The notes below the pieces were generated by a model. The model searched no databases. It saw nothing but the letters and a program-made list of their open reading frames with translations, and was not told where the DNA came from. Source: Patescibacteria group bacterium (GTDB lineage: Bacteria; Patescibacteriota; Patescibacteriia; Patescibacteriales; JAQTRU01). From it: 34,868 bases of DNA. Positions within the stretch are counted from its first letter, which is position 1. The number at the start of each line of letters is the position of its first letter. Location: positions 1 to 34,868 of the forward strand of contig JAQTSG010000008.1 in NCBI GenBank assembly GCA_028711415.1, given 5' to 3'. Positions 3,344-25,834 of this stretch are shown in pieces. A program made the translations under genes and the position numbers.

Positions 3344-3816
3344 AATTTCTAATTCACCTAATTTCTAATAAAATGCCAAATAGCAAAGGTTCTGTAAAGT
3401 ATGATTTAGAAGAGAGAACGGCAAGATTTGGTGAAAATATTATTGAGTTTGCCAGAAAGTTATTAAAAGATGATATTACCAAGCGCATTATTCCGCAATT
3501 AGTGGGAGCCGGGACGGCAATTGGCTCTAATTACTGTGAAGCCGATTGCGCCGAAAGCAATAAAGACTTTATCCATAAAATGGCGATTGCGAATAAAGAA
3601 GCAAAAGAAGCTAAACATTTTTTGAGAATGTCGGCTAAAGCTTGCCCTGAATTATCTCCTGAAGCGCGGATACTTTGGAAAGAGGCGCATGAGCTTAATT
3701 TAATATTTACGACTATTATAAAGAACGCAAAGAATACTGAAAAGAAAAAAATATGAATTAGGAATTTTAGCCTTTTTAATTTTATTAGAAATTAGAAATT
3801 AGGTGAATTAGGAATT
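3344..3816. repeat. 26-nt inverted repeat enclosing an S23 gene
   Basis: The left arm 3344-3369 and right arm 3791-3816 are reverse complements at 25 of 26 positions (core words attagaaattaggtgaatta). The enclosed gene starts 3 nt after the left arm and ends 35 nt before the right arm. Partial copies of the same word lie outside and between the arms (3337-3350, about 3754-3766, 3867-3880). A transcript through the locus could fold into a long stem with the gene in the loop. Confidence 0.8.
3373..3756 (+). CDS. Four-helix bundle protein, S23/23S rRNA intervening-sequence family (copy 1)
   Basis: 127 residues with the helical pattern of the S23/IVS four-helix-bundle family. The signature around residues 43-60 (LVGAGTAIGSNYCEAD) and the following DFIHKMAIANKEAKEAKHF block are typical. 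Family members were first found inside stem-loop intervening sequences of 23S rRNA genes, but most occur elsewhere; their biochemical role is unclear and nucleic acid binding has been suggested. No rRNA is present in this window. The gene interrupts the order T4SS genes / methyl cycle genes and sits inside a 26-nt inverted repeat. There is no Shine-Dalgarno; the ATG lies directly after the left repeat arm. Confidence 0.88.
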   Translation: MPNSKGSVKYDLEERTARFGENIIEFARKLLKDDITKRIIPQLVGAGTAIGSNYCEADCAESNKDFIHKMAIANKEAKEAKHFLRMSAKACPELSPEARILWKEAHELNLIFTTIIKNAKNTEKKKI

Positions 3817-17705: not shown

Positions 17706-18132
17706 AAGATTTAAGAATTAAGATTTATGATTTATGGAAGGAGGGAAAATTAAATCTTTTACAGACTTAAAAGTTTGGCAGAAAGGACATGAACTGGCGA
17801 TACAAATTTATCGAGTTACCAAAAATTTCCCCAAAGAAGAAATATATTGCCTAATGAGCCAAATGAGAAGAGCGGCCATTTCCATTACCTCCAATATCGC
17901 TGAAGGTTTCGGCCGGCAAGGATATAAAGAAAAAATTCAATTCTACTATTTAGCCCAGGGTTCATTAATTGAACTAAAAAATCAATTATTACTGGCAAAA
18001 GATATAGGTTATTTAGATAAAAATGACTTTATCATTTTAGCGCAAATTGCTAACGATACTCATAGGCTATTGCAGGGTTTAATAACAGCTTCAAAAGGAT
18101 TCTTAAATCTTACTTCATAAATCTTAAATCTT
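17706..18132. repeat. Inverted repeats flanking S23 copy 2
   Basis: Left 17706-17730 contains aagatttaagaa and ttaagatttatga. Right 18100-18132 contains their exact reverse complements, ttcttaaatctt (18100-18111) and tcataaatcttaa (18115-18127). The right arm overlaps the last codons and stop of the S23 gene. The words differ from those at copies 1 and 3. Confidence 0.7.
17734..18120 (+). CDS. Four-helix bundle protein, S23/IVS family (copy 2)
   Basis: 128 residues, the most canonical of the three copies in this window. FTDLKVWQKGHELAIQIY at 8-25, the MSQMRRAAISITSNIAEGFG segment at 46-65 and the FYYLAQGSLIELKNQL helix match the S23/four-helix-bundle signature. It is inserted between radA and the glycosylase gene. 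An upstream GGAAGGAGGG includes the start codon itself, so it is not a usable Shine-Dalgarno. The function of the family is not established. Confidence 0.92.
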   Translation: MEGGKIKSFTDLKVWQKGHELAIQIYRVTKNFPKEEIYCLMSQMRRAAISITSNIAEGFGRQGYKEKIQFYYLAQGSLIELKNQLLLAKDIGYLDKNDFIILAQIANDTHRLLQGLITASKGFLNLTS

Positions 18133-22877: not shown

Positions 22878-22924
22878 CCATTGAACGACGAGAGTTTATA
22901 ATCTAGTGCCCTCAAGAGGATTTG
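22878..22924 (-). pseudogene. tRNA debris: a 3' fragment and a 5' fragment between the tRNA-Arg genes
   Basis: Positions 22906-22924 repeat exactly the 3' end of tRNA-Arg(CCG) (19 nt, also at 23011-23029). Positions 22878-22890 (ccattgaacgacg) resemble the D-arm start of tRNA-Arg(GCG) (22822-22834). The rest of both genes is missing, and a CCCCGCC hairpin abuts the 3' fragment. Confidence 0.65.
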
Positions 22925-23990: not shown

Positions 23991-24460
23991 GAGAAAACAA
24001 AAAAGCAAAAAAACAAGAAAGCAATAGGAGGGCAATATGAATGAATATCAGGAAAATTTAAAGAAGAAAATGGACGAATATGCCCATTTTATTTACAGAG
24101 TCTGCAAGGAATTTCCAAAGGATGAGATGTTTGGGGTAGTCTCCCAGATTAGAAGAGCAGCTTTATCAATTATTTTGAATTATATCGAAGGATACGCGAG
24201 AAAAAGGCCTTTGGTGCGGTTAAATTTTTTAGAGACGTCTTACGGTTCCCTGAAAGAGTCTAAATATTTGTTATATTTTTCTTTGGTTGAAAATTATTTA
24301 AGCAGGGAAAACTATAGCATAGGTTTAAAGATAGCCGAAGAAATAGGAGCCATGCTTTGGAAAGAAATAGATAATTTAGAGAAAAGTCAAAAAATATAAA
24401 AGAACAGGAAAACAAAAGGTAGAATGTTTTTAGTTTGTTTTTTTATTTTTTTGTTTTCTT
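23991..24460. repeat. Inverted repeats flanking S23 copy 3
   Basis: Left 23991-24018 (gagaaaacaaaaaagcaaaa onward) and right 24433-24460 are reverse complements at 23 of 28 positions. The left arm begins about 10 nt after the predicted transcription start. The same A-rich word also lies upstream of recG (about 21707-21728). The words are low complexity, so part of the match could be compositional. Confidence 0.6.
24037..24399 (+). CDS. Four-helix bundle protein, S23/IVS family (copy 3)
   Basis: 120 residues. FIYRVCKEFPKDEMFGVVSQ followed by IRRAALSIILNYIEGYARK is the S23/four-helix-bundle signature. It has a good Shine-Dalgarno (aggaggg, 4 nt before ATG) and a near-consensus promoter, so this copy appears actively expressed. 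The sequence is clearly divergent from copies 1 and 2, so it is not a recent duplicate. It lies immediately upstream of the tRNA-Ser cluster, inside an A/T-rich inverted repeat. Confidence 0.9.
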   Translation: MNEYQENLKKKMDEYAHFIYRVCKEFPKDEMFGVVSQIRRAALSIILNYIEGYARKRPLVRLNFLETSYGSLKESKYLLYFSLVENYLSRENYSIGLKIAEEIGAMLWKEIDNLEKSQKI

Positions 24461-24470
24461 GGTTTAAAAT

Positions 24471-24560
24471 GGAGAGGTGGCTGAGCGGCTGAAAGCAGCA
24501 CCCTGCTAAGGTGTTGAGCCTTCACGGGTTCCCAGGGTTCGAATCCCTGCCTCTCCGCCA
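24471..24560 (+). tRNA. tRNA-Ser (anticodon GCU), CCA encoded
   Basis: A class II tRNA: acceptor GGAGAGG/CCTCTCC, D-arm with GAGCGGCTGAAAGC, anticodon stem GCACC/GGTGT with loop CTGCTAA, long variable arm, T-arm AGGG-TTCGAAT-CCCT, discriminator G and genomic CCA. It reads AGC and AGU. Confidence 0.96.
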
Positions 24561-24620
24561 GATTTAAATATTAGGAAGGGTGCCTGAGCGGTTGAAAGGG
24601 ACAGTGAATATTTATAGAGC

Positions 24621-24707
24621 GGAGGGGTACCAAAGCGGTTTAATGGGACAGTCTTGAAAACTGTTGTTCCTTAATGGGGACCGCGAGTTCGAATCTCGCC
24701 CCCTCCG
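24621..24707 (+). tRNA. tRNA-Ser (anticodon UGA), nested in the anticodon loop of another tRNA-Ser
   Basis: A complete class II tRNA: acceptor GGAGGGG/CCCCTCC, anticodon stem ACAGT/ACTGT with loop CTTGAAA, long variable arm, T-arm CGAG-TTCGAAT-CTCG, discriminator G, no CCA. The flanks tatagagc (24613-24620) and gctctata (24707-24714) are exact reverse complements, extending the acceptor stem to about 15 bp. It reads UCA and probably other UCN codons. Confidence 0.92.
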
Positions 24708-24727
24708 CTCTATATGGAGTCTTGTCA

Positions 24728-24771
24728 GCCAGAGGCTTCGTGCCAGAGGCAGACAGGGATCCGCCTCTGGC
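24728..24771. repeat. GC-rich palindromic repeat inside the interrupted tRNA-Ser
   Basis: gccagaggc occurs at 24728-24736 and 24742-24750, and its reverse complement gcctctggc at 24763-24771. It forms the 3' part of the anticodon-loop insertion. Confidence 0.7.
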
Positions 24772-24891
24772 GGAAAAACTGTTGAGCCTTTTTATCGGGT
24801 CGGATGACCCGAAACGGGTTCCCTGGGTTTTTACCCCGTGTTCATCACTGGGGCGAATCCCTGCCCTTCCGCCAATTTTCAAGTTTGAATT

Positions 24892-24937: not shown

Positions 24938-25834
24938 GTGAAATTTAATTATTTCTTTATGGACATAATTATTCCTTTAATAGAACTTAGCACTTATGTT
25001 TTAACGGCTATTATTTTTATTCATGCCTGGAAAAAGAAACCTTATTTTGCTTTTGTAATTTTGGCCGCCACAATTTTCGGTTTTTTGGCGGAATATTCCG
25101 CGGTCAGTAAAATCCCGCCGCCATATAATTATCCTCAGGCTCTTCTGGCTTTACCTGGCCCGGTGCCGCTTAATATCTGCCTGGGCTGGGGAATTATTAT
25201 CTATGCCGCCCTGCAAACAGCCATTCTATTAAAGGTAAAATGGTGGCTAAAGCCGCTGGTCGCGGGGTTTCTAGCGGTGATTATTGATTTCGCTGAAGAC
25301 CCGCCGTATGTCAAAATGGATTTATGGCAATGGACTCCGTCGCATCCGGAAGCTTGGTTTGGCATTCCCTGGAGTAATTACGTGGGCTGGTTTCTCATTG
25401 TTGTTATTTTCCTTTTTATCCTAGAACTTCTTACTCGTTATTTTCCAACCGGCCGTTATCTTTGGCGCGACGGCCTGATCGCTTTTTTCGCCGTTATCCC
25501 TTCTTTTGCTCTTTTTATGGCCGCTATCCTTGGTTATTTCTGGATAATCGGGTTTAAGATTAGCTGGCTTAATGAAGCGCTTTTAACTATGATGATTTTT
25601 ATAATCTGCTCTGTGCCGGTAATTCGCGCTATACCAAAAATGGACAGAGCCAGTAAAATAGATTGGGTAATTTTAGCTGTTCCCTTATATATATTTTTCT
25701 GGGCGCTGGTCGGTTTTTTTACCACCAGACTTTATCTTCAAAGCCAGGCCTTAGTTATGGTCATACCGTTTGTGGTTATCATCGGCTTACTCGGTTATTT
25801 ATGGCCAAGTCTTGATCGGTTATTAAAAAAATAA
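24938..25834 (+). CDS. CruF-like carotenoid biosynthesis membrane protein
   Basis: 298 residues, about eight membrane segments. The block PLNICLGWGIIIYAALQ and the acidic DFAEDPPYVKMDLWQW motif followed by GIPWSNYVGWF match the carotenoid biosynthesis (CruF, carotenoid 1',2'-hydratase) family. Start choice is uncertain: GTG at 24938 lies only 7 nt after an extended -10 and would be leaderless, while ATG at 24959 (MDIIIPLIELS) would have a leader of about 20 nt. The next gene, 21 nt downstream, belongs to a second hydratase family, CrtC/AttH. No phytoene synthase or desaturase is in the window, so the substrate is unknown. Confidence 0.75.
   Translation: MKFNYFFMDIIIPLIELSTYVLTAIIFIHAWKKKPYFAFVILAATIFGFLAEYSAVSKIPPPYNYPQALLALPGPVPLNICLGWGIIIYAALQTAILLKVKWWLKPLVAGFLAVIIDFAEDPPYVKMDLWQWTPSHPEAWFGIPWSNYVGWFLIVVIFLFILELLTRYFPTGRYLWRDGLIAFFAVIPSFALFMAAILGYFWIIGFKISWLNEALLTMMIFIICSVPVIRAIPKMDRASKIDWVILAVPLYIFFWALVGFFTTRLYLQSQALVMVIPFVVIIGLLGYLWPSLDRLLKK

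Follow-up and report, generated by a model that had tools for sequence, protein, structure and literature searches.

The DNA analysed computationally here (the window) is a stretch of 34,868 nucleotides, contig C30 of a 1.10-Mb Patescibacteria genome (G000), about half of which was covered in stretches. At 24574-24874 of the forward strand, with tRNA-Ser(GCU) (24471-24560) on one side and an open reading frame (24938-25834) on the other, it contains a split tRNA-Ser gene whose anticodon loop encloses an intact tRNA-Ser(UGA) at 24621-24708. This nested arrangement, first proposed in a first-pass annotation, was confirmed as real. The outer gene is of class II, with its halves at 24574-24605 and 24778-24874. 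The 5' half comprises the acceptor strand GGAAGGG, the D arm and ACAGT; the acceptor forms 7/7 Watson-Crick pairs with CCCTTCC at 24864-24870, the anticodon stem ACAGT/ACTGT is paired at all positions and the D stem at 3/3, while the variable and T stems are weaker (4/5 each). Together with the terminal GCCA, these are the two class II ends that had been annotated.

The anticodon-loop insert spans 24606-24777 and has the annotated length of 172 nt. It begins with a spacer and an arm (24606-24620), followed by the inner gene, which was called by both ARAGORN and Rfam (RF00005, 57.7 bits), and by the other arm with its spacer (24709-24717). The flanks TATAGAGC (24613-24620) and GCTCTATA (24707-24714) lengthen the inner acceptor stem by 8 bp, so that the complete arms, 24613-24627 and 24700-24714, are 15 nt long and 100% complementary. 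The insert ends with AGTCTTG, a palindrome TCAGCCAGAGGC..GCCTCTGGCGG and AAAA (24718-24777), and in the copy of a sister genome of the same genus (G002) this AGTCTTG..AAAA block flanks the inner tRNA on both sides.

Two further palindromic inserts interrupt the 3' half. After the anticodon-stem strand ACTGT and the start of the variable arm (24778-24790), TCGGGTCggatGACCCGA occupies the variable loop (24791-24813); the remaining variable arm and the 5' strand of the T stem follow (24814-24829), then TTTACCCCGTGTTCATCACTGGGG in the T loop (24830-24853) and finally the 3' strand of the T arm, the acceptor CCCTTCC and GCCA (24854-24874). The outer tRNA-Val of G002 has a near copy of TTTACCCCGTGTTCATCACTGGGG at the corresponding T-loop position. 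The variable-loop hairpin, annotated with 6 bp, measures 7 bp (24795-24812), and the T-loop hairpin is present, not with an uninterrupted 7 bp but with 4+3 bp around one bulge (about 24834-24853). All three inserts do lie in loops; taken alone, this placement is weak evidence, as loops and junctions make up about 63% of tRNA boundaries. A chance origin of the outer gene is excluded because its acceptor pairing is perfect and, as described below, nests recur.

To identify the outer isoacceptor, the inserts were removed and the anticodon loop was set to CTTGAAA on the basis of AGTCTTG..AAAA at 24718-24777 and of the G002 copy. ARAGORN called the reconstructed gene tRNA-Ser(UGA), from which the outer gene is probably also UGA and not GGA or CGA. 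The genome has intact genes for all four Ser isoacceptors, GCU and UGA in the window, GGA (in L004) and CGA (in L007) elsewhere, and the outer gene is therefore redundant. The inner gene is the sole UGA serine tRNA detected in the genome. Since ARAGORN and Rfam report only the inner gene at this locus, automatic annotation misses such arrangements. Separately, L004:8532-8600 is a copy of positions 1-69 of tRNA-Ser(GGA), 100% identical over the copied stretch. The T loop of this copy contains a double hairpin, and the copy is followed by both a GIY-YIG gene and the intact tRNA-Ser(GGA).

The Ser nest does not stand alone; further nests occur in the same genome, in sister genomes and in other Patescibacteria. 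Inspection by eye found six nests in G000 (Ser-UGA, Ile-UAU, Val-UAC, Met-CAU, Thr-CGU and Pro-GGG), as well as partial forms at Pro-CGG, Tyr, Ser-GGA and others. A strict acceptor-complementarity test was positive for 5/45 intact tRNAs, one of them (Arg-CCG) visibly spurious, compared with 0.35 expected when upstream flanks were matched with downstream flanks of different tRNAs. In the full nests, inner and outer genes have the same isotype and different acceptor stems: outer GCGCTTG/CAAGCGC and inner GCACCAG/CTGGTGC for Ile, GGGCGCA/TGCGCCC and GGGCAAT/ATTGCCC for Val, and GGCTGGG/CCCAGCC and GGCGGCG/CGCCGCC for Met. The outer acceptors pair with themselves wherever later change has not disturbed the pairing. 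The inner tRNAs are the sole called genes of their anticodon, Met being the sole gene of the elongator type.

A second kind of tRNA duplication was also observed. Here the part from the T loop to the 3' end of a tRNA is repeated 80-200 nt downstream of that tRNA's intact gene, and a palindrome or the motif GCACCGAGGAGCTTCGA often precedes the copy (window 22906-22924; L016:4505-4520; L018:989-1004; L023:3106-3122; L104; L119).

The order of events can be read from sister genomes that lack the inserts, where empty sites were found for Met, Val, Phe and Pro-GGG. Met is uninterrupted and of the outer type in both G002 and a second member of the genus, G001, whose working Met gene equals the outer Met of G000 on both sides of the insert; the empty site reads TAGCACT[CA]TAACGC in G001 and the filled site TAGCACT[TTCACCCCG..CGGGGCAAG]TAACGC in G000. 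The Val gene of G001 likewise resembles the outer Val of G000, with CA where the insert sits, and its naive Pro-GGG matches the outer gene of G000 around the break. For Phe, the outer gene of G001 shares its acceptor and T arm with the naive gene of G000, and the inner gene of that G001 nest differs by 1 nt from the naive Phe of G002. These empty sites mark the outer gene as the displaced resident and the inner gene as the newcomer, or replacement. The naive Ser-UGA of G010, from another family of the order, has the outer-type acceptor GGAAGGG/CCCTTCC, in keeping with the same direction for the window locus. Mutational decay as the only process was rejected because the outer halves equal working genes of the sisters. 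Halves also recombine, since acceptors are exchanged between the Ile nests of G000 and G001; in the latter, the two halves of the outer gene are mismatched.

The first-pass annotation considered that the outer gene might still be processed. In such a case the inner tRNA could lie within an intron that is excised before the outer halves are joined. The outer stems are well paired, and pairing of the arms would place the two halves next to each other, much as in archaeal split tRNAs. However, the tRNA splicing endonuclease (PF01974) was absent from G000, G001, G002 and G010, with archaeal controls positive, and no group I or II intron was called by Rfam scans of the window. If the cassette were cut out exactly, the loops of Met and Val would lack 2 nt (CA), and the outer halves of the sisters carry further inserts, are mismatched or are missing, as at the Ser-UGA locus of G001, where only the 5' half of the outer gene is left. 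A functional, spliced outer tRNA is thus very improbable; because of the missing endonuclease, the imprecise ends and the lost or interrupted halves, the outer RNA is probably dead.

The cassettes follow a common plan of arm, tRNA and complementary arm, roughly 110-240 nt in total, with arms that usually begin with CCCC and finish with GGGG. The Ser nest of the window is an older, rearranged example with the tRNA-adjacent arm TATAGAGC/GCTCTATA. In an alignment of 12 arm pairs from other nests, in which spacer letters are arbitrary, 95.8% of cells were standard pairs, with 18 double changes; because the arms come largely from separate insertions, this shows each arm pair to be palindromic rather than one structure kept by selection. 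The insertion sites are the anticodon loop (Ser, Ile, Val, Met, Gly, Arg and Pro) or the 3' end of the D arm or D loop (Thr, Leu, Phe and, in G002, Pro). The Val site CGTTTA^TTCACCC..GGGCAAG^CCGA recurs across Parcubacteria lineages with different, complementary arms, the flanks TTCA and CAAG staying constant while the arms vary. The cassette ends are not clean target-site duplications: in Met and Val, CA is replaced by TTCA..CAAG, Gly has a 4-bp CAAG on both sides and Pro shows neither pattern.

These ends bear on the idea that a nest is the scar of an integrative element or phage that broke a host tRNA gene, brought the cognate tRNA and then lost everything else, equal logic having been proven in mycobacteriophages (PMC10865867). 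Against it, no direct repeat of 7-10 bp was found at the nest junctions, empty and filled Met and Val sites sharing 2 bp (CA), and no gene other than the tRNA was found in the window inserts or in the nests read. The inserts are short at the inspected loci, without a kilobase intermediate. Tyrosine recombinases (about 300-340 aa) number one or two per genome, similarly in G055 and G008, two nest-free genomes of the same order, and no nests were found in viral contigs. We consider this origin improbable. A viral vector for the arms was likewise discarded, the single viral-contig match being a coincidence without a tRNA, and the Thr arm giving no match.

The nested architecture is patchily distributed. 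Within the genus, nests were found in G002 for Ser-UGA, Val-UAC, Thr-UGU, Arg-UCG, Pro-GGG, Val-CAC and Leu-UAG, and in G001 for Ile-UAU and Phe. Other families of the order have them for Ser, Met and Gly (G007), Ser and Thr (G013), Val and Thr (G025), and Val and Leu (G010), with double nests for Thr in G013 and Gly in G007 (loci L077 and L085, respectively). No nests were found in G055 and G008. A half-tRNA test counted tRNAs flanked by cognate halves: 15/44 in G000, 9/45 in G001, 16/43 in G002 and 9/43 in G010, compared with 1/46 in G055 (a single contig) and 0/47 in G008, a few positives with both halves being neighbours that share one relic (two Arg genes of L138). A search of about 85,000 species genomes with the Val nest pattern gave nine loci. 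They lie in Buchanan-, Veblen-, Doudna- and other Parcubacteria, in one record labelled just "bacterium" and in one labelled Methylomirabilis, which is probably mis-binned. Wherever the contig continues, these loci have an intact Val tRNA inside. The exact pattern is sparse, present in 5/111 genomes of the order and 3/380 in a phylum sample. The compared genomes are mostly fragmented assemblies without raw reads, which could favour an assembly or binning artefact as the source of the nests, but independently made assemblies share this architecture while differing in sequence, and the sisters show precise empty sites, making that explanation negligible.

The reading that we favour, and regard as fairly probable, is that the resident tRNA gene is broken by the insertion of a palindrome-bounded cassette, whose cognate tRNA then serves as the substitute. 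This reading builds on the nesting, the cognate inner and outer genes, the paired arms, the empty sites in sisters, the patchy distribution and the decay of the outer halves; from these we infer that the cassette would move as a unit, that viability would select for cognate cargo and that the outer RNA would be dead. The cassette (arm, tRNA, complementary arm) would enter a resident tRNA of the same isotype at the anticodon loop or the 3' end of the D loop and destroy it. The inner gene would become the only source of that tRNA, so that the cassette could not then be lost. Since most tRNA species of G000 have a single gene, only insertions with cognate cargo would survive, and such a viability filter would explain the invariable match of inner and outer genes. 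Repeated rounds of insertion would produce dolls within dolls, and the dead outer halves would later collect palindromes, exchange parts or lose one half.

Templated repair or replication slippage is a less likely explanation of the same loci, although it deserves more weight than the other alternatives. When a tRNA loop is broken or a fork stalls in it, the site would be patched by copying a cognate tRNA, either nearby or incoming, together with its flanks; there would be no mobile cassette, and the arms would be palindromes of the kind common in these genomes. Homology would explain why inner and outer genes are always cognate, and a tandem copy of a tRNA 3' end with its 30-nt flank in G025, the many tRNAs adjoined by just a 5' or 3' half and the swapped acceptors of the Ile nests are consistent with such copying. 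No convincing free cassette of arm, tRNA and arm was found outside tRNA genes, even though some would be expected from a cassette that moves freely under a viability filter; this speaks for either targeting to tRNA genes or a copy mechanism. On the other hand, no local template is evident, since the inner acceptors are unlike both the outer ones and those of other tRNAs in the genome, and paired arms together with constant TTCACCC/GGGCAAG Val ends across lineages would be unexpected from slippage.

Palindromes are also dispersed in G000 without tRNAs. The arm family CCCCGTTAGAAAT is scattered in this way, and CCCCGTTAGAAA has 38 copies in 548 kb, while some arms (GCACCAAA and the Thr arm) are rare. 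Copies of the family CCCCGTTAGAAAT...ATTTCTAACGGGG (L001:1390-1522, L002:180-283, L013:4873-5025 and others) often bound 30-130 nt of differing sequence and sometimes enclose more palindromes. Plain palindromes inside tRNA relics have recurrent sites at 9/10, 12/13, 21/22 and the T loop. The suggestion of the first-pass annotation that palindromes preferentially enter hairpin loops found no support for these plain hairpins, as 25/44 insertions lie in loops or junctions against a background of 63%; the tRNA-carrying cassettes, unlike them, do occupy the anticodon loop or the 3' end of the D loop.

Regarding the machinery, four nest-bearing genomes have 8, 10, 7 and 5 stand-alone GIY-YIG genes, and 11/30 of these lie less than 500 nt from a tRNA, compared with 1.2 expected (p about 1e-8). 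No stand-alone GIY-YIG gene was found in nest-free G055 and G008, where just a long UvrC-like frame matches, and Y1 transposases are also absent from both. Small GIY-YIG genes a few dozen nt from tRNAs were seen at G000:C12:8651-8860 (L004), G000:C62:4292-4495, G001:C3:100256-100471, G001:C1:84783-84980, G002:C55:1667-1882 and G010:C10:22523-22723. G000 has three Y1_Tnp (RAYT-like) genes (L071, L072 and L073), with nearby near-perfect palindromes (GTAGGGACAGG.. and TAGGGGTCCAACCCCC..) that differ from the tRNA-associated ones. A RAYT as the enzyme of the arms was discarded, since the palindromes flanking the Y1_Tnp genes do not match the arms. The tRNA-adjacent GIY-YIG nucleases and the Y1 transposases are possible candidates and a lead only, their correlation with nests covering nine genomes and being confounded with genome size. 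The window also encodes three similar small proteins (3373-3756, 17734-18120 and 24037-24399) with an SQIRRAALSI-like motif, which by eye we take to be of the four-helix-bundle type of 23S rRNA intervening sequences.

The newness suggested here concerns the nested architecture and the putative cassette, the mechanism being less certain than the architecture. The first-pass annotation knew of no described case of a tRNA within the anticodon loop of another tRNA, and the open-access literature likewise yielded no description of nested or interrupted bacterial tRNA genes, nor a matching one of palindromes in Patescibacteria or of GIY-YIG genes with tRNA genes. That the nests represent a new minimal mobile element, with an essential tRNA as its sole cargo, persisting by breaking the gene it replaces and leaving traces across Patescibacteria, is a tentative proposal to which we give slightly less than an even chance. 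If the cassette moves in this way, it would be among the smallest selfish elements conceivable, holding its place by being essential, and it would explain both tRNA genes with foreign acceptors replacing residents and scattered tRNA halves in reduced genomes.

On the tests made, the nests appear to belong to none of the known systems compared. Rickettsia palindromic elements and REP/RAYT-type repeats are dispersed palindromes, also found inside genes. The nests are alike in that palindromes with the ends of the element are dispersed (CCCCGTTAGAAA), but here the palindrome encloses a complete tRNA of the interrupted kind, and no cognate Y1 transposase flanked by the same palindrome was found. 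Archaeal split, permuted and intron-bearing tRNAs share the geometry, an anticodon-loop interruption with complementary flanking sequence; here, in contrast, the insert is a tRNA gene, and BHB-type splicing lacks both its endonuclease and a removal that restores the tRNA. The core structure of self-splicing group I or II introns did not appear in the window with Rfam. A homing endonuclease element would require a nuclease that cuts the empty site; the observation bearing on this is the clustering of stand-alone GIY-YIG genes near tRNA genes. Insertions are frequent in rRNA genes of CPR bacteria, many at stem-loops and some with GIY-YIG nucleases; many are group I or II introns or carry open reading frames, and tRNA is not mentioned (PMC11270868). 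The bacterial group and the frequent interruption of structured RNA genes are the same, with rRNA genes interrupted there and tRNA genes here. The closest logic is that of tRNA-dependent lysogeny in mycobacteriophages, in which a whole phage integrates with a tyrosine integrase and a core of about 10 bp (Guerrero-Bustamante and Hatfull 2024, PMC10865867). The nests have neither such a core duplicated at their junctions nor an integrase of their own; with about 110-240 nt, they carry only the tRNA gene, enter the anticodon or D loop and are nested repeatedly.
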